A DNA stretch of 43,065 nt, taken from NCBI GenBank assembly GCA_015234045.1, contig JADFWU010000023.1, forward strand, positions 2,622 through 45,686, written 5' to 3'. Origin of the DNA: Magnetococcales bacterium (lineage in GTDB: Bacteria; Pseudomonadota; Magnetococcia; Magnetococcales; JADFWU01). Positions 765-15,018 of the stretch are shown in pieces. How positions within the stretch are numbered: the stretch's first letter is position 1; the number at the start of each line of letters is the position of its first letter. The notes under the pieces were generated by a model. The model was not told where the DNA came from. It saw only the letters and a list, made by a program, of their open reading frames with translations, and searched no databases. A program made the position numbers and the translations under genes.

Positions 765-1439
765 TTACTTCATCTCTGTTTGCCAAACGATCCCATCTCC
801 ATTATCCAACACCGCCTGAAGCCTATCACCCGGCTCTAATGGCCCGACACCGTCTGGTGTTCCAGTCAATATTACATCGCCTGGCAGCACGGTGAATAGC
901 TGGGAAATATGCGCGATTAACGCACCAATGCCATACATCATCAGACGGGCATCGCCGTTTTGTTGTATCTTGCCATTGCGCTTTAGTGAAAAGGTCAGCT
1001 GTTGAGGATGTTCGACTTGATCGGCGGGGATGAAAGGTGTCATGGGACATGATCCGTCAAATGCTTTGGCGCGCTCCCAAGGCAAGCCTTTTTTCTTCAT
1101 TTTGGCCTGCACATCCCGTAAGGTGAGATCCAGCGCCAAACCGTATCCTGCCACACTTTCCAACGCCTTTTTCTCAGATACAGCACTGAGTTGTTCATTG
1201 ATCAATACGGCGATCTCAAGCTCATGATGGCAAGCACCCTGCCCGTGCGGAACAACGACTGGCTCGGTAAATGGTACCAAAGCAGTTGATGGTTTCATAA
1301 ACAGAACCGGCTCATCGGGTATGGGATTGGAAAGCTCCTGGATATGGGCCAGATAGTTGCGCCCAACGCAGACTATTTTTCCAATTGGCAAATCGATATC
1401 GGAACCGTTATTCCAACTGTGACGATAGGCGTTATCCAT
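765..1439 (-). CDS. Fumarylacetoacetate hydrolase (FAH) family protein
   Basis: This 224-residue protein has the hallmarks of the FAH superfamily: GKIVCVGRNY near residue 20, EPVLFMKP, the acidic metal-binding segment HHELEIAVLI, and a C-terminal GTPDGVGPLEPGD loop. The length fits the small single-domain members (YcgM/FAHD1 type), which are Mg-dependent acylpyruvases, fumarylpyruvate hydrolases or oxaloacetate decarboxylases acting in the cytoplasm. The substrate cannot be read from sequence. The ATG at 1439 lies 9 bp after the rlmD stop, so it is probably the last gene of a znuA-rlmD-FAH transcript. It converges with the TPR gene; no terminator is visible in the short gap between them. Confidence 0.85.
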   Translation of the reverse strand: MDNAYRHSWNNGSDIDLPIGKIVCVGRNYLAHIQELSNPIPDEPVLFMKPSTALVPFTEPVVVPHGQGACHHELEIAVLINEQLSAVSEKKALESVAGYGLALDLTLRDVQAKMKKKGLPWERAKAFDGSCPMTPFIPADQVEHPQQLTFSLKRNGKIQQNGDARLMMYGIGALIAHISQLFTVLPGDVILTGTPDGVGPLEPGDRLQAVLDNGDGIVWQTEMK

Positions 1440-1448
1440 GGTTTACAC

Positions 1449-2762
1449 TCATCTGGTAAACAGAGCCAGACTTTCCACATGCCATGCCATGGGAAACATA
1501 TCCAACGGCACGACCTCTTCCAATGTATAACCACCCTCTTGCAACACACCGGCATCCCTGGCCAATGTCGCCGGATCACACGAGACGTAGACGACGCGCT
1601 TGACCGGAGAATCAACCAGCGCTTTTGCCACAGCAACAGCCCCTTCACGCGGTGGATCTAATACCACGACATCCTGTTCAGACCACGCCAATTTAGCCAA
1701 CTGCGCCGCATCGGACAGATTCGCCATATGAAATGTGAGCGCATCCAACCCGTTAACACGACTGTTTTCAACAGCCCGTTGCACAGCTGGCCGATAGGAC
1801 TCTACCCCTGTCACGCTAGAAAAATTATCTGCCAAACTGAGTGAAAAATTACCCACACCACAAAAAAGATCCCAAACCCGCTCACCACTACCCGCCCGTT
1901 CCATTACCATAGAAACCAACTGACGATTTTGAGCACGGTTTACCTGGGTAAAATCGCCTGGCAAAAAAGAGAGCCGTTTGCCATCATCCAGCCCGTAGGA
2001 AAGCAATTTTTTCTGAATAATGGGACGCAATGTGCGTTTTTTTCCACGCTGTAACCAAAATTGATCAATAGCGTGCGTTTCGGCAAACGCCTTGAACAGT
2101 TGAAAATCTTTCTGCCTCGGTGCCACCATGGTGTGAATCACTAATCCGAAGGAATCATCACCACGAACCAAGTCAATTTCAGCCACCTGACGTGTAATCG
2201 TGAGTTTACTGATCAGTGTACGCAGTGGTGCAATCAACTGATTCAAGGCAGGTTCCATCACCGGACAGCTTTCAATATCGACAATCCGATGGCTGTTGGT
2301 CTCATAAAAGCCCATCAGCACATGCCCTTTGACCGCACGCACTTTCAAACCCGCCCGACTGCGATATTCACTGGACTGCGGAGAAGGAATCACTTCCCCA
2401 ACAGCGGTATCCACACCACCCAAGCGCTGCAACGCCTCTTCAACAAATCCCTGCTTGGCCTTCAATGCCTGCCCGCTGGATAGATGTTGAAGATGACAGC
2501 CACCACACCGACCAAAATGCGGACAAAGCGGCTCCTGACGCTCCGCCCCTGGCTCAATAATGGACTCAATCTCACCATGCACAAACCGCTTGCTGGTCTT
2601 GACAATCCGAACCTCGACAACATCTCCAGGCGCACCATACGGCACAAACACCGCCTGCCCGTCATAACGTCCCAGACTAAGACCACCGGTGATCATTTTT
2701 TCAATAGTCAGGGTGATTTTTTTGCCTTTTTGCTCTGAATGATGGCTCATTAAGTTACTCAC
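1449..2762 (-). CDS. rlmD: 23S rRNA (uracil-5-)-methyltransferase, RlmD/RumA family
   Basis: This 437-residue protein has the RumA layout. An N-terminal TRAM domain (about residues 14-70) is followed by the [4Fe-4S] cysteines C80, C86, C89 and C166, a SAM-binding segment near 293 (VWDLFCGVGNFSLSLA), and the catalytic cysteine C395 in YVSCDPATLARD. The family makes 5-methyluridine in 23S rRNA, using SAM and a covalent cysteine intermediate. U1939 is the E. coli RlmD target, but RlmC and RlmCD relatives cannot be excluded. The longest frame begins with GTG at 2762, overlapping the znuA stop; an ATG at 2750 (MSHHSEQ) is an equally good start. The overlap indicates translational coupling to znuA. 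Confidence 0.88.
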   Translation of the reverse strand: MSNLMSHHSEQKGKKITLTIEKMITGGLSLGRYDGQAVFVPYGAPGDVVEVRIVKTSKRFVHGEIESIIEPGAERQEPLCPHFGRCGGCHLQHLSSGQALKAKQGFVEEALQRLGGVDTAVGEVIPSPQSSEYRSRAGLKVRAVKGHVLMGFYETNSHRIVDIESCPVMEPALNQLIAPLRTLISKLTITRQVAEIDLVRGDDSFGLVIHTMVAPRQKDFQLFKAFAETHAIDQFWLQRGKKRTLRPIIQKKLLSYGLDDGKRLSFLPGDFTQVNRAQNRQLVSMVMERAGSGERVWDLFCGVGNFSLSLADNFSSVTGVESYRPAVQRAVENSRVNGLDALTFHMANLSDAAQLAKLAWSEQDVVVLDPPREGAVAVAKALVDSPVKRVVYVSCDPATLARDAGVLQEGGYTLEEVVPLDMFPMAWHVESLALFTR

Positions 2763-3738
2763 CTAAACAGTGGGCCAATGAATCACCCAACGCGTTCATA
2801 ATTTCAAAATAGGCATCAGGTCCCGGCTTAATCCCTGTGCCCAACGGGTCTAATACTGCGGACTTGATACCAGTATCACCGGCAATGGCAGTGACAATGC
2901 GTTCAGAAAATTGTGGCTCACTGAACAGGCAGTGCGTTGCGGATTGCTTAATGCGCTGTTGAATCTGATGCAAACGCTTTGCACCCGGCTTGCGATCTGG
3001 ACTCACCGCCACCGCACCCACCGGACTCAAACCATAACGCGCTTCAAAATGATGATACGCATCGTGGAATACCACATATGCGCGGGTACGCAGAGGTTTC
3101 ATTTTCCGCAACAATCCACGGTGCAAACGACTGATCCGCCCGAGCACATTGGTAGCATTCTGTTGATAAAGCGCAGCATTGTCTGGATCAAGCGCACTGA
3201 GCTTTCGACTGATCGCAGAGGTGATCGCCTTGGCATTCTGTGGATCCAGCCAGACATGCATATCAGTCAACATGCCCTCATGATCATGATGATGCGCCTC
3301 ATGACCATGTTCATCATGAACCGCCTCATCATGGTAATGATCATCATGCCCATGTTCCTCTTCCACATCCCCAAGCCACGCCCCCAAATCCCGATTAGGC
3401 TGAGGCTTGACCCCAGGCACGTTAAACAACATCATGGATTTCTCTTCACCCAACCCCTGAAGCGTCTTGGTCAAAAACGACTCAAGCGTCGGCCCAACCC
3501 AAAACACGATATGCGCGTTATTCAAAGCGCGTACATCAGAAGGTCGAAGATTATAGGTATGCGGAGACCCACTCCCCTTAACCAACAAATGCGGCTCACC
3601 TCGCCCCTGCATCACACCTGCAACCAATGAGTGAATCGGGCTGATCGTGGCAACAACTGAAATATTTTCAGCCTGAGCAAAAGAAAACGACCAGAAAAAA
3701 GAACAACAAACAACAAACCGAACCAAATTGATAAACAT
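2755..3738 (-). CDS. znuA: Zinc ABC transporter substrate-binding protein ZnuA
   Basis: This is a periplasmic cluster A-I metal-binding protein of 327 residues. A signal peptide ends near FAQA (residue 23). The expected zinc ligands are present: H60 in SPHTYNL, H161 in MHVWLD, H225 in VFHDAYHH, and an acidic residue near D297. A His/Asp/Glu-rich loop at about 126-153 is the mark of zinc rather than manganese members. C270 and C324 match the C-terminal disulfide pair known in ZnuA. An AAGG lies about 7 nt upstream of the ATG. The permease and ATPase genes (znuB, znuC) are not in this window, so the protein is an orphan here or works with a transporter encoded elsewhere. I could not identify a convincing Zur box in the AT-rich upstream region. 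Confidence 0.9.
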   Translation of the reverse strand: MFINLVRFVVCCSFFWSFSFAQAENISVVATISPIHSLVAGVMQGRGEPHLLVKGSGSPHTYNLRPSDVRALNNAHIVFWVGPTLESFLTKTLQGLGEEKSMMLFNVPGVKPQPNRDLGAWLGDVEEEHGHDDHYHDEAVHDEHGHEAHHHDHEGMLTDMHVWLDPQNAKAITSAISRKLSALDPDNAALYQQNATNVLGRISRLHRGLLRKMKPLRTRAYVVFHDAYHHFEARYGLSPVGAVAVSPDRKPGAKRLHQIQQRIKQSATHCLFSEPQFSERIVTAIAGDTGIKSAVLDPLGTGIKPGPDAYFEIMNALGDSLAHCLGE

Positions 3739-3943
3739 AGAAAAACCTTGACCAATCCTCTACAGCTTAACGAAAACAACTTGACAAGAAAACAACTCAT
3801 AAGCTAGAAACTTAAATATCTAAAAAAAATTAAGAATTGATTCTATGTGAAGATTAACATCCTACATAAAAAATTTTGAGTCGGTTGACACAACGCTAAA
3901 ATATAAAAATTGGATTAAACACAAGGGCAAGAAAACACACAAA

Positions 3944-6157
3944 ATGAAAAATAAAATAAAGTCCATACTAATAGCTCTATTTATTTTATTCCCTGCGATC
4001 ATATTATCGTCATGTATGGTAGAATATCCAGATATTTACAATTACCCTCAAAACATTAACAAACTAATCACTCCTGCATCACAACAGCCTGCTCCTGCAT
4101 CACAACAGCCTGCTCCTATTACAACTTCACAACCACCACCAATAGTAGTAAAGCCGACCATACAACAAATAAATGGATGCAAAGACAAGCCAACTCCAAT
4201 GCCACTACACTCAGGCATGAGTGAACCAATCCATTTTAATTGCTCTCCACAACAGTTCAACAATACCAAAGATGAAAATCAAGATAAAAAAGCACATCTA
4301 AATATTGATACATTAATAAAATTCACTAATCATATTTCAAAGTCCATAGAAAATTTATTTGTTAGTAAAACACATAAAGAATCTGAAAATAAAAAGCAAT
4401 CACCTGAAAAAGGGTATTACAGTATTGAAGTACTGTATAATTGGTTGGCTCAGTTTTTTGGGGAAAATATTTTTACAAAATCTATCATAATTTTCTCAAT
4501 TTATACAATACCATTGTTTTTCATTCCAAGTCTAGCAATATTTATAGTAAATAACACAGCAGCAAGCAATAAAAAAACAAGACATAGAGGATTCTATTTT
4601 GGCTTATACACACTAAAACTTACGCTAACTTTTTACCCTTTTATGTCTATCACTTATTTGTATATGGCATTAATGACATTTGGTGTTACAAACAATCAGT
4701 TGTATATGTATTCAATTTTTCTTTGGATAATAACCTTGCTTGCGTGGGGAAGAAATATAGTTGGAGTCCATTATATAAGACAAATACCAAGTTTATATCC
4801 TCATTTTTTGCACTCCGTTGAAAAAGACCTAGAAAATAAATTACTACCCTCGCGTAGAAAGATTTATAAATCAATCACACACTTAATAAATGATGATAGA
4901 AAAAATATAAATGACACACTATACCTCGGAGATGACAGAGGCTCAGGAAAATCATTTTTCATTGATATTCTCATTAAGAAAAATGACTCTATTGGCTTCA
5001 ATGCTCCTTGCATAATTCCTATTGATATTTGGTCTGAACAAAGTGAGCCCGATCTTCAGTTTGCTCTCCTTGACAAAGTACTATCTCATCCAGCTATAAT
5101 CATTGACAATTTTAGAAATTATCCGCTTTCAGTATTGCTAAATCATATTTCACGCTTCTTCGGGCGCTTCAAAGCAAAGATAAAAATGCCTGCTTTCCAT
5201 TTAGAAGCAAATTTCTCAGATAAAGGGGTAGAATTATTCTGGCAAAAAGTTCTTGAAAGAGTAACTTCAAGGAAGAGGATGGTTTATATTTTTGACGAGC
5301 TTGATCGCGCCTCAACTCCAAGCACTCAGAATGCTTTGTCACTTACACAACGTTCACTAAATAAATTCAACAATATTGTAATCATTATTGGCACTAGGGA
5401 ACAGATCAATACTAAAGCATTTAATCCATTACAAACCCTATATAATCCAGATTTGACAGACTCTGTCCATGCAACTCTTTTTGATCTATTCACAAAAGAA
5501 TATTCTGATTTAGATAAGTCCTCCCAGGCGACTTGGCCAAACTGGATACGAGAAACAATAAATGATTATACTTACCAACATTCCATACTGGAAAATCTTA
5601 ATAATGGGCAAACAGCTCCCAATTCAGAAAACAACACCTCATCTTCAGAACCTTCTACAAACTCTGCAAATCCTTCGATCACTCCTCAACATAGGCAATC
5701 AGGTTACCACAACTTCACCTTAAGGTATTTTTTGACAAAGTATGAAAAAAATCCGAATTTCATTAGAAAATTGTACGAACAATCTGGTGAAAGATATTTT
5801 AGCAACGAAATAGATTTCGACAACCTTTATCCTAATGATGTCATATTCTTAGCTGATACTGAGATTCCGGATTTTAATAAGCTACTAGAACTGACATATA
5901 ATGCTAAAAATCCGGGCTTAGAATATGATGTTTATCATGAAAAATGCCTAGAAATACTAACCAATTCAGTAGGTATTCTTTTTGTGTCTGACATTATTTC
6001 AGATCAAGGAATAAAAAGTCTCACACCCAGAATATTATTGGGACAACTAAGAAAGACCTTTTTGAATGCACGTAATACATTCGGGGAAAATATAGATTTG
6101 AGTGATATTAGTGTAGCTATCCAAATATCAATCCTTAATTCTGTCACTTTTGTTTAA
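3944..6157 (+). CDS. Lipobox-bearing, three-TM P-loop NTPase (KAP/STAND-like), first gene of AT-rich island
   Basis: I do not recognise a named family for this 737-residue protein. Residues 1-24 form a lipoprotein signal ending in LSSC (C24 the likely lipidated residue). A Pro/Gln-rich, low-complexity segment with two cysteines (C80, C100) follows. Three hydrophobic helices lie at about 179-203, 217-246 and 253-271. The loop between helices one and two is basic (NKKTRHR), so by the positive-inside rule the N-terminal part is periplasmic and everything after 275 cytoplasmic. There, GDDRGSGKS (329-337) looks like a P-loop and RMVYIFDELDRAS (445-457) like Walker B, recalling KAP or other STAND/AAA-type NTPases; IIIGTRE (480-486) may be sensor 1. 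A Ser/Asn/Thr/Pro-rich linker spans about 555-588, before a C-terminal domain of unknown type. The G+C content is visibly much lower than in flanking genes. The stop lies 16 bp before the next gene. A role as a membrane sensor, perhaps in phage defence, is inference. Confidence 0.75.
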   Translation: MKNKIKSILIALFILFPAIILSSCMVEYPDIYNYPQNINKLITPASQQPAPASQQPAPITTSQPPPIVVKPTIQQINGCKDKPTPMPLHSGMSEPIHFNCSPQQFNNTKDENQDKKAHLNIDTLIKFTNHISKSIENLFVSKTHKESENKKQSPEKGYYSIEVLYNWLAQFFGENIFTKSIIIFSIYTIPLFFIPSLAIFIVNNTAASNKKTRHRGFYFGLYTLKLTLTFYPFMSITYLYMALMTFGVTNNQLYMYSIFLWIITLLAWGRNIVGVHYIRQIPSLYPHFLHSVEKDLENKLLPSRRKIYKSITHLINDDRKNINDTLYLGDDRGSGKSFFIDILIKKNDSIGFNAPCIIPIDIWSEQSEPDLQFALLDKVLSHPAIIIDNFRNYPLSVLLNHISRFFGRFKAKIKMPAFHLEANFSDKGVELFWQKVLERVTSRKRMVYIFDELDRASTPSTQNALSLTQRSLNKFNNIVIIIGTREQINTKAFNPLQTLYNPDLTDSVHATLFDLFTKEYSDLDKSSQATWPNWIRETINDYTYQHSILENLNNGQTAPNSENNTSSSEPSTNSANPSITPQHRQSGYHNFTLRYFLTKYEKNPNFIRKLYEQSGERYFSNEIDFDNLYPNDVIFLADTEIPDFNKLLELTYNAKNPGLEYDVYHEKCLEILTNSVGILFVSDIISDQGIKSLTPRILLGQLRKTFLNARNTFGENIDLSDISVAIQISILNSVTFV
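4071..4112 (+). repeat. Two perfect 21-bp tandem repeats in the NTPase gene
   Basis: The 21-bp unit beginning ctcctgcatcacaacagcct occurs at 4071-4091 and again at 4092-4112, followed by a partial third start (ctcct). It encodes the repeated PASQQPA element in the predicted periplasmic, proline-rich stalk. In-frame units of this size can vary in number between strains. Confidence 0.9.
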
Positions 6158-6173
6158 TTAATGGTGAAATATT

Positions 6174-8465
6174 ATGCCTAAAATTGATCACAACGACACT
6201 TCAATAAACAATATAAAAGATGATGAACACACTGACAATAATATTAATGCGGAACAAATTACCAGTAATAGTTCTAACACTCCCATTCCTTTTACAAAGA
6301 ACGATGGAAAAGCACATGTACTTTATTATAGGTTAATACAGATATATAATCAATCAGTTGATTCAGTGAAAGAGGCACAAGAATTTAAATCCACAGAAAA
6401 ACACAGGGAAAATAACGAGCATTTATGGGAAAAAATCATTGAGAATTTTCAACATAAATTGAATCGCTTTTCCGAAATTGATGAACTTGCATTATTTAAT
6501 ATAGATTCATTTTCCTCTGATGCGCAAGAAGTAACAAGACAAGTTGATGAATTCATAAACAATGCTAGATCTAAAAATGAATTAATTTTGATTTTTCGTG
6601 TGCTTATTATTAGTTTATTTGAACAATGGGAATCTGAAGAAATACACACATCAACTCAACGCGTTGATTTTATGTTAAACATCATGAACAATCCAGAGAT
6701 CTTTATCTTTAGATGTGGCCTCTCATTTCGAAAGCTTATTACAGTACTAAGATCATTTTTATTTTATAAAATTGATCTTAGTACTGATTTTGAACATGTT
6801 ACGAATGACACTTTACTCACTTATCATGCATTAGCTCAGATTGCAAATCGTACCTCCTCGCCGTCTTGTCGTCGTTTAGCTATTTATTACTCTTTAGATA
6901 TCCTCATTACCACTGCCCGCCAAGTTAACAATACACTTTCTTTCAATCGTAAGGGTGACTTAGACAATAACCAATTTTACACTTTTGACGAAAAGCAGAT
7001 GAGAATGATTCACTCATTAACCTCTAATCTATCAGCTTTTTTTCTTCACATATACAATGAGAATCACCTTTCACAAATTACTAGCTCTGATAGTAATCCT
7101 TTGGAAGAGGTTGCTAAATTTGTTATTTTATCCATTAAATTCAGTACATCAGAAAAAAATCTAGATATTCCACCTTCCCCATCTGAAGAAATGACTGGCT
7201 TCAGTAATCTGTGGTTTACTGAGTCAGCTTCCTTAAATAAATTAAGTGGCCAAGTTTGGGCGGATATGTTCAAACGCTATATTAACTACATTGGATCGAC
7301 CACAACCGGCTCCCAAGCTTTAAAAGAATCTTTTCCTAGTTTGCTTGTTGATTATAATCAAAACAATATGGAACATTTAAAGGAGTATTTGATATTGGCG
7401 TTTCATTATCTTTCAGCTCTTTCCCGGGGGCTCTTTATCCAGAAAAAAGATTATGATGAAGTTTCTCAAGCTTTTTTCAATTCGAGTGTAAGTTATAGCC
7501 TTATTAAAGATTTATCAGGTTCTCATCCAAACCTGAATGAGACTTTTCTTTCTTTCTCAATGGTATTATCATCAGCATGTGGTTTTTGGTGGGCATTTAA
7601 TATGGCTGAAGACTTAGAACACGCTCTGAATAGCTATCATGGTACTAGTTGTGCTGTTAACTTACTTGGTGCCCTTAGCAACTTTGACCATTCAGGTACT
7701 GTCGGTGAGAAAAAATATAATGAAATATCTCAAGCTTACATTGATTTGGCTGTTTATTTAATTAATATTTTACCTGATCATTCTAATGATCACCGTAGAA
7801 TAATTTTGTCTTTGCAAAAACTTGGAACACAATTTTCTGAATCATCTGATTTTTCAGGAGATCTTGGGAAAATACTATTACGTCATCAATCTAACATAGT
7901 GAAGTATGTATCAGAAAATCGAGATGATAGGATAGCAACTGTTTTAGGGATATTTCATACCATAACTGGGTATTTTGAATACTCTTCTTATGAAAATTTT
8001 ACCAATTGCGACACATCAGAAGTAACTATTTCATCAATTTTAAAAAGCCCTTTGTCAGAATCAAACAAACAAGAACTTATTGGGTTGCTATCTGAATTTT
8101 TAAAATTTTATCTAGTTAAGTATAATAAAATAAATCACTATCCTTTTGGTTCTGATTTTTCACTACTGTCTTGTATTTCCACTATTTTAGATAAATTTGA
8201 TGAGTCATATAACGATCTTCCAAGATATTTTATCACAGCGTTAGAACGCTTTTTTTTCAAGAGTGATGATGGCAACGACATCAACAAAGATCTAAAACAT
8301 AATCCTTTCACAAAGCATCATCTTCTAACTGATGGAGAATGGGATTCATTATCAGAAAGCGCTGTTCCAGAATTTGAACCTCCGTTAAGTGATGAATTAA
8401 GAAATATTTTTTCTACAATCCAGAAAGATATTCTATTTTTTCGTGAAAGCGTTCATCAAGAATGA
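6174..8465 (+). CDS. Uncharacterised 763-residue protein, second gene of AT-rich island
   Basis: I recognise no family or catalytic motif. The first 45 residues are polar and acidic (Asp, Asn and Thr rich) and look disordered. The remainder reads as a long, mainly helical soluble protein with regularly spaced Leu, Phe and Tyr, such as FRKLITVLRSFLFYKIDL near 180-200. There is no signal peptide, convincing TM helix, P-loop or nuclease signature. It begins 16 bp after the NTPase stop with GGTGA about 7 nt upstream, so the two genes are almost certainly one transcript. Its base composition is as AT-rich as its partner, implying joint acquisition. An adaptor, helical-repeat sensor or effector partner of the membrane NTPase is a reasonable inference from the pairing only. 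A perfect 14-bp inverted repeat lies inside the gene at 6742-6786. Confidence 0.8.
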   Translation: MPKIDHNDTSINNIKDDEHTDNNINAEQITSNSSNTPIPFTKNDGKAHVLYYRLIQIYNQSVDSVKEAQEFKSTEKHRENNEHLWEKIIENFQHKLNRFSEIDELALFNIDSFSSDAQEVTRQVDEFINNARSKNELILIFRVLIISLFEQWESEEIHTSTQRVDFMLNIMNNPEIFIFRCGLSFRKLITVLRSFLFYKIDLSTDFEHVTNDTLLTYHALAQIANRTSSPSCRRLAIYYSLDILITTARQVNNTLSFNRKGDLDNNQFYTFDEKQMRMIHSLTSNLSAFFLHIYNENHLSQITSSDSNPLEEVAKFVILSIKFSTSEKNLDIPPSPSEEMTGFSNLWFTESASLNKLSGQVWADMFKRYINYIGSTTTGSQALKESFPSLLVDYNQNNMEHLKEYLILAFHYLSALSRGLFIQKKDYDEVSQAFFNSSVSYSLIKDLSGSHPNLNETFLSFSMVLSSACGFWWAFNMAEDLEHALNSYHGTSCAVNLLGALSNFDHSGTVGEKKYNEISQAYIDLAVYLINILPDHSNDHRRIILSLQKLGTQFSESSDFSGDLGKILLRHQSNIVKYVSENRDDRIATVLGIFHTITGYFEYSSYENFTNCDTSEVTISSILKSPLSESNKQELIGLLSEFLKFYLVKYNKINHYPFGSDFSLLSCISTILDKFDESYNDLPRYFITALERFFFKSDDGNDINKDLKHNPFTKHHLLTDGEWDSLSESAVPEFEPPLSDELRNIFSTIQKDILFFRESVHQE
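6742..6786. repeat. Perfect 14-bp inverted repeat inside the island's second gene
   Basis: The left arm cagtactaagatca (6742-6755) is matched exactly by the right arm tgatcttagtactg (6773-6786). The 17-nt AT-only spacer contains its own 12-bp palindrome (6761-6772). On RNA this would be a stable hairpin, yet both arms code for protein (VLRS and DLST). Whether it is regulatory, a binding site or chance cannot be told from sequence. Confidence 0.8.
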
Positions 8466-8505
8466 TAGCATAATTTATTGGCTTGTATTATTAAATGGGA
8501 TTCAA

Positions 8506-11316
8506 TCAAATATACTTTCCAGTCCAGGATCTTTTTTCTGCAACGATCTGTTTCTGAGTGCCTGCAATTATTAATTCTCCCCCTTGGTCCCCGCCTTCAG
8601 GGCCAAGGTCGATAATCCAATCCGCCGCCCGTATTACATCCAAATTATGCTCAATCACCACCACTGTATTACCACCATGCACCAGCCGTTGCAGCACATC
8701 CAACAACCGCCGGATATCATCAAAATGTAATCCCGTAGTAGGTTCATCCAGAATATAGAGCGTTTTTCCAGTTGCCCTTTTTGATAGTTCACGGGCGATT
8801 TTCACTCTCTGCGCTTCACCGCCCGATAGCGTGGTGGATGCCTGTCCCAATTTCAAATAGCCCAAACCGACATCCATCAGTGTTGACAGTCGTCCTCTGA
8901 TGGGTGGAATGGCGTTGAACAGCTCCAACGCCTTTTCAACTGTAAGATTCAACACATCGGCAATAGTCATACCCTTGTAATGAATTTCTACGGTTTCGCG
9001 GTTATAGCGTTTGCCCTGGCATACATCACACGGTACAAACACATCGGGCAGAAAGTGCATCTCAATTTTCAAAACACCATCACCCTTACACGCCTCACAG
9101 CGCCCGCCTTTGACATTGAAGCTGAACCGGCCTGACTTATAACCCCGTGCCTTAGCCTCGGTAGTCTCGGCAAACAACTCCCGAATCGGCGTAAACACGC
9201 CAGTATAGGTGGCCGGATTTGAACGCGGTGTCCGCCCAATGGGCGATTGATCAATATGAATCACCTTATCAAGATGATGCACACCATCAATCGCATCAAA
9301 CTGACCGGCAGGCTGTTGCGCCTTGTGTAACCGCTGTGCCAAAGCGGGATAAATCGTATCCAGAATCAAACTGGATTTTCCCGAACCAGAAACGCCAGTA
9401 ATACAGCTCAACAGTCCCAATGGAATCGAAACATCAACGCCCTTGAGATTATTTGTCGTCACATTATTCAATGTGAGTTGGCGCAGTTCATCTGGTTTAC
9501 GTCGATTTTTTGGCTGTGGAATGCTTTTTTTGCCAGACAAATACTGCCCGGTCATAGAACCAGGATCAGCCAGAATCTCTTCAGGCGTACCCGCTGAAAC
9601 AACCTCACCACCATGAATACCCGGCCCTGGCCCCATATCAATGATGTAATCCGCTGTACGCATGGCATCTTCATCATGTTCGACAATCACCACGGTATTG
9701 CCCAAATTACGCAACCGAATCAGCGTATCCAACAGGCGTTGATTATCCCGTTGATGCAGGCCAATACTTGGTTCATCCAGAATGTACAGAACACCCACCA
9801 AACCGGAACCAATTTGATTGGCAAGGCGAATCCGTTGGCTCTCGCCGCCAGACAATGTGCCAGCGGTTCTATCAAGGGTCAGATAGTCCACACCCACGGC
9901 AATGAGAAAATCCAGCCTGTCGTGCACCTCTTTTAAGATCCGCTCGGCAATGGCTTTCTCTTTGGCAGACATCTCCACCTGATCCAGATAATCACGTGTT
10001 TTAGCCAATGAGAGCGCCGTTAAATCAGAGATATTGTGTTCACCAATCCGTACATGCAGCGCCTCTTTACGCAGTCGCTTACTCTCACAAGCCGGACAAG
10101 GCGTAGCATTGCGAAAACGCCCTAGCTCTTCACGTATATCCTCTGATTCAGTTTCCAAATAGCGCCGTTCCAGATTATTGATCACGCCTTCCCAGGTGCG
10201 AAATGTCTTAAATGAGCCGCGCGGACCACGATATTGGAAGCGAATTTTTTCTTTACCAGAACCATACAACACAATTTGACGAAAGCCTTCCGGCAATTCA
10301 CGCCAAGGCACACTAATTTGAATGCCATAGTGCTCGGACAAGGTATACAACGACTCCCGCGCCAAACGCGCAGTAGACTTTGACCACGGCGCAATTACGC
10401 CGCCACGAATGGATAGATCCGGATTAGGCACAATCAATTCAGGATCAAAAAACTGTTTGGTGCCCAAACCATCACACTCAGGACAGGCTCCAAAGGGATT
10501 GTTAAATGAGAAAAGACGTGGCTCAATCTCAGGATAGGAGATATTACAATGAATACAGGCATGCCGGGTTGAGAACAGTTTTTCCTCTTTAGGATCAGCA
10601 AGAATCTCAATCCGCGCCACTCCATCAGACAACTCAATCGCGGTTTCCAAAGAGTCTGCCAAGCGCACTTCAATACCCGGTTTGACGATAAGTCGATCCA
10701 CCAACACATCAATGGAATGTTTAATATGGCGTTTCAGCGGTGGCACTTCATCAATTTCATAGATTTCTCCATCCACCATCACCCGCGTAAAGCCCTTTTT
10801 GGCCAGAGTGGCCAGTTCTTTAAGATATGTGCCTTTACGCCCACTGATCACCGGTGCCAACAGCTGTAACCGTGAACGCTCCGGTAACGCCATAATCGCA
10901 TCCACCATCTGACTGATTGTCTGACTTTCAATCGGCAGTCCACAGCCATGACAATAGGGACGACCCGCACGCGCATAGAGCAAACGCAGATAATCATAAA
11001 TCTCCGTCACCGTACCAACCGTTGATCTCGGATTGCGACCTGTGGTCTTCTGCTCAATGGAGATGGACGGCGACAAACCCTCTATGGAGTCCACATCCGG
11101 TTTATTCTGAAGACTCAGAAATTGCCGCGCATAGGCTGATAACGACTCTACATAGCGCCTCTGCCCCTCCGCAGAGAGTGTGTCAAACGCCAAAGATGAT
11201 TTACCAGAACCGGAAACACCGGTAATAACGGTTAACGCATCACGTGGAATATCGACATTGATACTCTTGAGGTTGTGTTCTCTGGCACCACGGATAATGA
11301 TCTTCTTATCGGACAT
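8506..11316 (-). CDS. uvrA: Excinuclease ABC subunit A
   Basis: This 936-residue protein is full length for UvrA, the DNA-damage recognition ATPase of nucleotide excision repair, which loads UvrB on lesions. It has two ABC modules: Walker [10 protein letters not shown] at 33-41, signature [12 protein letters not shown], then a second GVSGSGKSS and [12 protein letters not shown] with [13 protein letters not shown]. Zinc-finger cysteine pairs are visible: CHGC and CIHC in the first half, CEAC and CDVC (flanking the conserved [10 protein letters not shown] region) in the second. The ATG at 11316 is followed by the conserved [12 protein letters not shown]. It is divergent from the siroheme gene with a 53-bp spacer holding a 14-bp palindrome. 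Its 3' end converges with the AT-rich island; no terminator is evident there. Confidence 0.97.
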
Positions 11317-12133: not shown

Positions 12134-12643
12134 TCAAGAATCGGTATTTTTCTTCTTTTCACGTGCCTCACGCAATTTATCACCAAGCCCTGCATCAATA
12201 GCCAACTTCCGGCGCTTGGCTGAATACTCAGGAGAAACCATTGGGAAATTCTTTGGAAGATCAAAGGTATCTCTGTAAATATCCACGCTCATGGAATGTG
12301 AACGTGTGAGATGACCCTTTAGAGCGCTGCATGCCTTACCACATAAAAGACAGATCACAGAAGAGTGTGAGACCGCCTCATCCACAGGCACAAACGGTTT
12401 TGGTTTCACAGCTGCAACACTTTTAGATGCAACCGAAGATCCAGAGCTTTTTTCGGTCTTATCTGCGGCTTCAACAGCTGTCTCAGTAGATTCTTCAGAA
12501 ATGCTCACTGTTTGATCGGATAGATTTACCAATGTGCCATAAATATTGGACAGTAAACCCGTCACTTCCTGAGGTGGAACTTCATTATTTGAAACGTATG
12601 ACTCAACAATCATTGCGGCTTGCTTAACAAGATCCGAGGACAT
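12134..12643 (-). CDS. MucR/Ros-family zinc-finger transcriptional regulator
   Basis: This 169-residue protein has the MucR/Ros architecture. An N-terminal helical oligomerisation segment (about 1-45) is followed by a Ser/Lys/Ala-rich linker. The prokaryotic Cys2His2 finger uses C98, C101, H111 and H116 (CLLCGKACSALKGHLTRSH), followed by the conserved YRDTFDLPKNFPMV segment and a basic tail. Members are H-NS-like global regulators in Alphaproteobacteria that bind AT-rich DNA and often repress exopolysaccharide, motility and acquired genes. GGAGAGGG sits just upstream of the ATG. The 400-bp AT-rich upstream region would suit autoregulation, and the AT-rich island at 3944-8465 is a plausible target; both points are inference. 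Confidence 0.9.
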   Translation of the reverse strand: MSSDLVKQAAMIVESYVSNNEVPPQEVTGLLSNIYGTLVNLSDQTVSISEESTETAVEAADKTEKSSGSSVASKSVAAVKPKPFVPVDEAVSHSSVICLLCGKACSALKGHLTRSHSMSVDIYRDTFDLPKNFPMVSPEYSAKRRKLAIDAGLGDKLREAREKKKNTDS

Positions 12644-13049: not shown

Positions 13050-14138
13050 TCAACGATTCACAGTTAATTGATCACTATTGGACCTTAATAGGAAATCAGC
13101 AAGCACCAATGACATCATGGCTTCTGCCACAGGAACCGCTCTGATACCAACACATGGATCATGACGACCATGGGTAACGATTTCCTTTGGATTCCCTTTG
13201 GTATCAATGGTCTTTCTCGGGATACGAATGGATGAAGTCGGTTTCACTGCAATTCGGACAACAATCTGCTGCCCCGAAGAAATCCCACCTAAAATACCCC
13301 CTGAATTATTTGCCATAAACTGAGGTTTTCCATCCGTACCAGGACGCATCTCATCAGCCATCTCAGACCCGCGACCACGTCCAGCAGACATACCCGCACC
13401 GATCTCAACCCCTTTGACCGCATTAATACACATCATCGCTTTGGCAATATCGGCATCCAGTCGATCAAATACAGGCTCCCCTAACCCGGCAGGTACACCA
13501 TCAACCACAATCTCCAATGTCGCACCAACTGAATCACCCGCCTCACGAATCTCATCCATCAGCGTAGTCAATCGCTCAACAGCTTTGGCATCTGGACAGA
13601 AAAACGGATTTTGCCCCACCTGCTGCCAATCCCAATTATTACGATCAATCTCTTCAGTGCCAATACCTACCAGAGCGCCACGCACACGCATTCCCTGCTG
13701 TTTGATCAACTTTCTGGCAATTGCACCCGCCGCAACACGCATAGCCGTTTCACGTGCTGATGAGCGCCCACCACCACGATAATCTCTCAAACCATATTTC
13801 GCCCAGTAGCTGTAATCCGCATGCCCCGGACGAAACAGATCCATAATCTCAGAATAGTCTCGGGAACGCTGGTCGGTATTTTCAATCAATAAACCAATGG
13901 AAGTGCCCGTGGTTTTCCCCTCGAACACACCGGAGAGAATACGCACTTGATCCGCTTCTTGCCGTTGTGTCGTGAACCGACTGGTGCCCGGCTTACGTCG
14001 ATCAAGGTCGGGCTGAATATCAGCCTCTGATAATGCCATGCCAGCCGGACAGCCATCCACAATAGCGCCCAGGGCTGGTCCGTGACTCTCGCCAAAAGTC
14101 GTTACCTGAAATATGCGCCCAAAGGTATTGCCACCCAT
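13050..14138 (-). CDS. aroC: Chorismate synthase
   Basis: This 362-residue enzyme catalyses the last shikimate step, from 5-enolpyruvylshikimate-3-phosphate to chorismate, using reduced FMN. The start [11 protein letters not shown] is conserved, followed by [26 protein letters not shown] and [21 protein letters not shown]. Near the C-terminus is [18 protein letters not shown] frame 25 codons longer exists (to 14213), but AGGAGAG lies 8 nt before the ATG at 14138 and the extension runs into the fabI terminators, so the short start is preferred. It is probably transcribed separately from fabI, because two terminators separate them. Confidence 0.96.
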
Positions 14139-14170
14139 CTGTTTGCTCTCCTGGATTGACAGATTACATA

Positions 14171-14201
14171 GAAAAAAACCTCTGACCAATGCCAGAGGTT
14201 T
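14171..14201 (-). terminator. Second intrinsic terminator after fabI
   Basis: On the minus strand, aaacctctg and cagaggttt pair around an 8-nt loop and run into seven Ts. It lies between the fabI stop and the aroC start and backs up the terminator at 14217-14238. Confidence 0.8.
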
Positions 14202-14216
14202 AATGTGTTTCATCTA

Positions 14217-14238
14217 TAAAAAAGAGCCTGTGGCTCTA
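14217..14238 (-). terminator. Intrinsic terminator overlapping the fabI stop codon
   Basis: On the minus strand, AGAGCC-ACA-GGCTCT is followed by six Ts. The fabI TAG stop (14238-14236) supplies the first bases of the stem. The stem is short, which may explain the second terminator 15 bp on. Confidence 0.75.
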
Positions 14239-15018
14239 CTCATCTACCGCACGCATGCCAACGATATGATATCCGCAATCCACATGCATCACCTCACCCG
14301 TTACACCACTTCCCATATCAGAAAGAAGAAATAGTGCAGACTCCCCAACCTCGGCAGTCGTAACATTACGACGCATGGGCGCATTATCACGATTCCAGTT
14401 AAGGATGTTCTTGAAATCCCCAATACCGGAAGCTGCCAGCGTTTTGATCGGTCCGGCAGAAATGGCATTGACCCGAATCCCACTGGGACCAAAATCAGCC
14501 GCCAAATAACGCACACTCGCCTCAAGAGCCGCTTTCGCAACGCCCATCACATTGTAATGCGGCATCACCCGTTCCGCACCGAGATAGGACAGCGAAATAA
14601 TCGAACCACCTTCTGGCATCAATGCAGCAGCACGGCCACACACCGCCGTCAAAGAATAGACCGATGTCTCCATTGCGATCCGAAAACCTTCACGACTGGT
14701 GCTATAATACTGCCCGGTCAACTCGTTACGCTTGGCAAATGCCACTGAATGAACAATAAAATCCACCCGACCCCACTGTTCTTCAATCTGCTTAAACAGT
14801 GCGTCAATTTCAGCATCTTCAGTGAGATTACACGGCATAACCAACGTCGAGCCAACCCGCTCTGCCAATGGTCGGACCCGTCGCTCCAATGCCTCCCCGA
14901 GATATGTAAATCCCAACTCCGCCCCTTCACGATGACACGCCTGAGCAATACCCCATGCAATGCTACGTTCATTGGCAACCCCAAGGATTAACCCCTTCTT
15001 TCCTTCCATCAGGCCCAT
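14236..15018 (-). CDS. fabI: Enoyl-[acyl-carrier-protein] reductase (NADH)
   Basis: This is a short-chain dehydrogenase of the FabI type, about 260 residues, catalysing the last reduction in each fatty-acid elongation cycle. GLILGVANERSIAWGIA is the FabI nucleotide-binding signature. The catalytic Tyr-x6-Lys pair is in YNVMGVAK, after SYLGAERVMPH. AISAGPIKTLAASGI is the mobile substrate loop, the region where triclosan binds in the family. The longest frame starts with GTG at 15030. The ATGs at 15021 and 15018 are closer to family starts (MGLMEGKKGLI), with GAGGG just upstream. It ends in two tandem terminators. The gene upstream (midA) is on the same strand with a 90-bp gap. Confidence 0.95.
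   Translation of the reverse strand: MGLMEGKKGLILGVANERSIAWGIAQACHREGAELGFTYLGEALERRVRPLAERVGSTLVMPCNLTEDAEIDALFKQIEEQWGRVDFIVHSVAFAKRNELTGQYYSTSREGFRIAMETSVYSLTAVCGRAAALMPEGGSIISLSYLGAERVMPHYNVMGVAKAALEASVRYLAADFGPSGIRVNAISAGPIKTLAASGIGDFKNILNWNRDNAPMRRNVTTAEVGESALFLLSDMGSGVTGEVMHVDCGYHIVGMRAVDE

Follow-up and report, generated by a model that had tools for sequence, protein, structure and literature searches.

A KAP-type NTPase gene with a variable membrane anchor, and an adjacent gene for a predicted all-helical protein, in a Magnetococcales genome

Described KAP NTPases and the locus

KAP NTPases include scaffolds, such as the animal KAP protein Kidins220. In the KAP family (PF07693; Aravind et al. 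2004), the transmembrane (TM) segments are described as inserted in the NTPase domain (PMC2577010, PMC11846954), an arrangement that is usual without being universal. Two members have been linked to phage resistance: Tmn, which has two TM domains and acts against phages (PMC11846954), and QatA, the KAP NTPase of the anti-phage system qatABCD (PMC13279940). The DNA analysed here, called the window throughout, is a stretch of 43,065 nucleotides from a Magnetococcales bacterium (assembly GCA_015234045.1, contig JADFWU010000023.1). It carries a two-gene island, designated A and B, with the following layout:

3739..8505, + strand: two-gene island of low GC, flanked by znuA and uvrA (GC of A 0.329, of B 0.323, of the neighbours 0.47-0.50)
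3944..6157, + strand: gene A, membrane-anchored KAP-type P-loop NTPase of 737 aa (open reading frame and Pfam KAP_NTPase)
6174..8465, + strand: gene B, partner of 763 aa predicted to be all-helical, starting 16 bases past A; at four further loci, a B relative immediately follows A

Gene A is present in one copy in the host genome. Over the P-loop domain, the window protein passes the curated Pfam KAP_NTPase (PF07693) cut-off marginally (21.2 bits, compared to a cut-off of 20), and those of its relatives that were run against the model are clearly KAP (46.6-61.5 bits). An alignment of six A sequences, the window protein and five relatives, delimits the core:

4847..5503, + strand: P-loop NTPase core, about residues 302-520 (six-sequence alignment, and strand/helix order in a low-confidence model)
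4928-4954, + strand: Walker A GDDRGSGKS, residues 329-337
around 5279-5308, + strand: Walker B FDELDR, residues 450-455 (six-sequence alignment)
5399-5428, + strand: family motif E-x4-K-x-FNP (invariant columns, six-sequence alignment)

A Walker A motif and an acidic Walker B motif of the KAP form (hhhhDExDR) are thus both found in this alignment. Residues G333, G335, K336, D451, E452, D454 and R455 are invariant across the six sequences, as are W363, downstream of Walker A, and the motifs Walker A, DE-x-DR and E-x4-K-x-FNP. The AlphaFold model of A, built from three or four sequences, is of low confidence (mean pLDDT 43.9). A sequence search of the PDB returned chance matches only, and weak Bt-toxin and gp41-like matches were likewise dismissed as chance.

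Gene A therefore shares with the KAP family the Walker A and B motifs, the similarity of the core and the association with the membrane. It differs from the family in that its TM helices precede the NTPase, the Walker A-B interval holding at most one moderately hydrophobic helix, and in that it has its own motif, E-x4-K-x-FNP, and a usual helical partner gene. Tmn is encoded by one gene, and its TM segments are inserted. Both Tmn and A are bacterial KAP NTPases with TM helices, but the cassette described here has two genes, and A has an exported N-terminal anchor ahead of the NTPase. The KAP NTPases QatA, of qatABCD, and PifA, of the F plasmid, are matched weakly by the A relatives over the NTPase core; for QatA, the best score is 26 bits, compared to an NCBIfam cut-off of 600, and no QatB, QatC or QatD gene was seen beside A. 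Neither A nor B of the window matched a PADLOC model. The P-loops of the A relatives gave weak PADLOC matches to PifA, QatA and PDC-S20 over short stretches of the NTPase core, and no full-length profile match to Tmn, QatA, PifA or PDC-S20 was obtained for the window proteins or the relatives. A precedent for a lipobox followed by TM helices is CyoA, a polytopic lipoprotein and respiratory subunit; no sequence relation to A is claimed.

Membrane module and predicted exported tail of A

Ahead of the NTPase core, gene A encodes the following elements, their topology as predicted from sequence:

3944..4015, + strand: residues 1-24, a signal peptide ending in the lipobox LSSC (Cys24, at 4013-4015, marks a possible SPase II site)
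4016..4474, + strand: exported Pro/Gln-rich segment, residues 25-177, with C79 (4178-4180) and C100 (4241-4243)
4071..4117, + strand: 21 bp in exact tandem duplication (2.2 copies), encoding PASQQPA repeats within the stalk
4475..4555, + strand: TM helix 1, about residues 178-204, peak hydropathy 2.24
4556..4597, + strand: basic cytoplasmic loop TAASNKKTRHRGFY of net charge +4, with basic counterparts in three relatives
4598..4681, + strand: TM helix 2, about residues 219-246, peak hydropathy 1.28, the weakest of the three
4703..4771, + strand: TM helix 3, about residues 254-276, peak hydropathy 1.59

The N-terminus of A, MKNKIKSILIALFILFPAIILSSC, consists of a basic n-region and a long hydrophobic run (peak hydropathy of the segment, 2.75), followed by LSSC. 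The lipobox, at residues 21-24 as in the original prediction, is preceded by KNKIK and a 16-residue hydrophobic run and fits PROSITE PS00013; among the 35 open reading frames of at least 160 aa in the window, A alone combines this pattern with a basic n-region. With its n-region, h-region and Cys at +1, the window protein has the elements of a predicted lipoprotein signal, and in the host genome the tail of A may additionally be lipidated.

Cysteines occur at positions 24, 79, 100, 356 and 668 of A. The Pro/Gln-rich stretch with two Cys that had been predicted is present and includes C100; the residue given there as C80 is C79. This exported segment (residues 25-177, 20% Pro/Gln-rich) received no confident structure from AlphaFold and is probably disordered. 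The duplication within it, apparently the result of recent slippage, is exact, which suggests that the stalk linker is length-tolerant.

Hydropathy and the Walker motifs agree with the predicted order of three hydrophobic helices, a basic loop between the first two, and then the NTPase. The hydrophobic segments extend over about residues 178-206, 219-248 and 254-276. In the window protein, the TM1-TM2 loop, NTAASNKKTRHRGFY, has a net charge of +4 and the TM2-TM3 loop is neutral; across the three-TM proteins, which make up four of the six A sequences, these loops carry +2 to +4 and 0 to +1, respectively. Since the basic first loop recurs in the three-TM proteins, an orientation with the N-terminus outside and the NTPase inside, as originally proposed, is supported independently of the lipobox. 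The placement of the TM helices before the NTPase, and not within it, is supported as well: no TM pair, the insertion typical of KAP proteins, was found in the Walker A-Walker B interval of the six A proteins. For the window protein, the 19-residue hydropathy in this interval peaks at 0.93; the peaks of the relatives lie at 0.22-1.89. Three of the six proteins have a single moderately hydrophobic helix there (peak 1.3-1.9), which may be vestigial or else amphipathic.

Relatives of A and the partner gene B

The searches yielded five relatives of A: three belong to Magnetococcales, and a Planctomycetes (Phycisphaerales) genome led to the other two. A pattern search of the contigs gave no matches when the A protein was the only query, but did with an alignment; the fifth relative was reached from the Phycisphaerales genome via gene B, its A protein matching the profile with an E value of 1e-27. 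The distribution is patchy: A is present in 4 of 48 Magnetococcales genomes, the window's genome included, and in none of the others among 398 genomes drawn evenly from the phylum. Searches of phage collections, plasmid collections and viral contigs for A relatives were empty.

The anchor varies between relatives, which are designated here by locus. Signal peptides of L006 and L007 are type-I-like and apparently cleavable. L005 has a short acidic N-tail, whose export would need no signal; L030 begins with a signal-anchor-like helix that lacks a clear cleavage site, followed by a Pro-rich linker and three helices; and L016 has only a two-helix hairpin and no exported part. The exported part is thus missing in L016 and reaches about 170 aa at its longest, and the lipobox, with its Cys, is absent from all five relatives. 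Because anchor and outward tail differ from genome to genome, the predicted lipid attachment site is a local variant, not the core of the system. This runs counter to the original proposal in two respects: absence of the lipobox Cys from homologues, which that proposal had itself named as refuting, speaks against lipidation as a defining feature, and the lipidated stalk cannot be a general envelope-signalling device, since its length varies so widely.

Exactly two exported Cys are found in all four Magnetococcales A proteins, and this is a post hoc pattern for which the chance of two or more exported Cys, taken as a product over the four proteins, is about 2e-5. The pairs are spaced by 8 to 27 and their positions do not align. 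A disulfide in the exported tail of the Magnetococcales proteins is plausible from these sequences.

The original prediction had missed gene B, directly downstream of A, which is the better clue to function. AlphaFold, again from three or four sequences, predicts B to be all-helical with low confidence (mean pLDDT 40.8), and comparison with Pfam, NCBIfam, PADLOC and PHROGs returned no convincing family and no known enzymatic domain. Relatives of A and B are adjacent at five loci (the window, L005, L006/L017, L016 and L030), and every B match sat at an A locus in draws of 198 and 387 Planctomycetes and 264 Pseudomonadota genomes. B is the usual but not universal gene after A, because at L007 an unrelated 349-aa open reading frame occupies its position (3168-4217, + strand); this frame was tested for homology to B and rejected, and it represents a possible partner exchange. 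At L006, in Magnetococcales DC0425bin3, the B protein (1291-5250, - strand; 1319 aa) consists of two tandem B copies fused, as if the partner worked as a dimer or in two-fold symmetry. Within window gene B, a 21-nt inverted repeat with a 3-nt loop (6742-6786, 95% complementary) could form a strong hairpin; the coding sequence around it is rich in AT.

Genomic setting and possible functions of the cassette

The composition of the cassette is foreign to its host genome, with a GC of 0.33, compared to about 0.49 for the neighbours, and a GC3 of 0.25-0.27 for A and B, and at L006 the GC of A is 0.41, compared to 0.67 in the surroundings. Neighbours differ at each A locus. Those of the window cassette are housekeeping genes, and no defence gene was found beside it. 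Flanking repeats that would mark an insertion were not found, the matches inside 3600-8700 being short and scattered, and the DNA around znuA in relatives is too diverged for an empty-site comparison. An Rfam scan revealed no RNA, and promoter and terminator scans gave no more than chance. A ROS/MucR-type transcriptional regulator gene (12134-12643, - strand) lies a few kb from the island. At L030, A adjoins a MoxR-type ATPase gene, and the L007 contig carries PADLOC candidate-defence matches to PDC-M32A (4454-5803, - strand; E 3e-126) and PDC-M07A (13444-14484, + strand; E 8e-137). Proteins with an FGE-sulfatase domain are encoded upstream of A, on the same strand, at L005 (9773-11830, - strand) and L006 (8373-9737, - strand), one of them fused to a protein kinase and one to MORN repeats; this is perhaps chance in Magnetococcales.

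The best explanation, which we hold tentatively, is that A and B move horizontally together, as a cassette of two genes that is most likely a conflict module directed against phages or mobile elements. It draws on the adjacency of A and B at five loci with patchy presence, foreign GC and changing neighbours, on the fact that the KAP NTPases Tmn and QatA belong to anti-phage systems, on the candidate-defence matches of the L007 contig and the weak matches of the relatives' P-loops to PifA, QatA and PDC-S20, and on the recurrence of basic TM1-TM2 loops and, in Magnetococcales, of two exported Cys. Against it stand the housekeeping neighbours, the lack of a PADLOC match to A and B of the window and of a known enzymatic domain in B, the open reading frame in the B position at L007, the empty searches of phages, plasmids and viral contigs, and the fact that the Cys count is post hoc and unaligned. 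In such a conflict module, the NTPase of A would be tethered at the inner membrane via its N-terminal helix module, N-terminus out and NTPase in, and B would be a large all-helical cytoplasmic partner, possibly in physical complex with A. The exported tail, in Magnetococcales probably disulfide-linked, would either serve as a passive anchor or sense disturbance of the envelope. Assembly of the A NTPase, dependent on nucleotide, would switch B, which would then act as adaptor or effector. That A and B constitute a hitherto undescribed anti-phage system of two genes, with an exported tail that bears a disulfide, is lipidated in this genome and enables the KAP NTPase to detect phages attacking the envelope and to activate a helical effector, seems to us quite improbable.

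The N-terminal module may instead merely localise the NTPase, through an uncleaved N-terminal signal anchor, four TM helices and an exported loop, the lipobox being incidental or an alternative anchor. The N-terminal helix of L030 and the hairpin of L016 fit such an arrangement, and so does the pattern among relatives, in which attachment of the NTPase to the membrane is conserved and the kind of attachment is not. However, the window protein has an exact lipobox, the only one in the window, the signal peptides of L006 and L007 look cleavable, and the two exported Cys recur, so that this reading appears somewhat doubtful. An envelope signal sensed by a lipidated exported stalk and relayed through the three TM helices to the NTPase would account for the clean lipobox, for an extended Pro-rich linker carrying two Cys, and for helices that agree with the positive-inside rule; the Met at +2 might even direct the lipid to the outer membrane, a linker of roughly 150 aa then tying both membranes. 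We consider this unlikely in view of the relatives, none of which has the lipobox and whose exported part may be missing altogether, of an exported part without evident folded sensor domain, and of the exact duplication, which suggests that stalk length is not tightly constrained. A KAP-type membrane complex of A and B that is unrelated to defence, a housekeeping scaffold or transport energiser comparable to Kidins220, is in keeping with the existence of KAP scaffolds, the housekeeping genes around the window cassette and the lack of copies in phage and plasmid collections. It is poorly compatible with the patchy occurrence of the cassette, its foreign GC and the change of neighbours from locus to locus, and it too is improbable.

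What recurs is a cassette of a KAP NTPase and a helical protein, in which the membrane anchor is exchangeable. Since neither lipidation nor the stalk itself is conserved, the view that a lipidated stalk serves as a signalling rod is a minority one. The cassette sets the essential part, an NTPase together with its partner at the membrane, apart from the decoration, the mode of tethering, in a family of NTPases that is common to bacteria and animals and present in several anti-phage systems.
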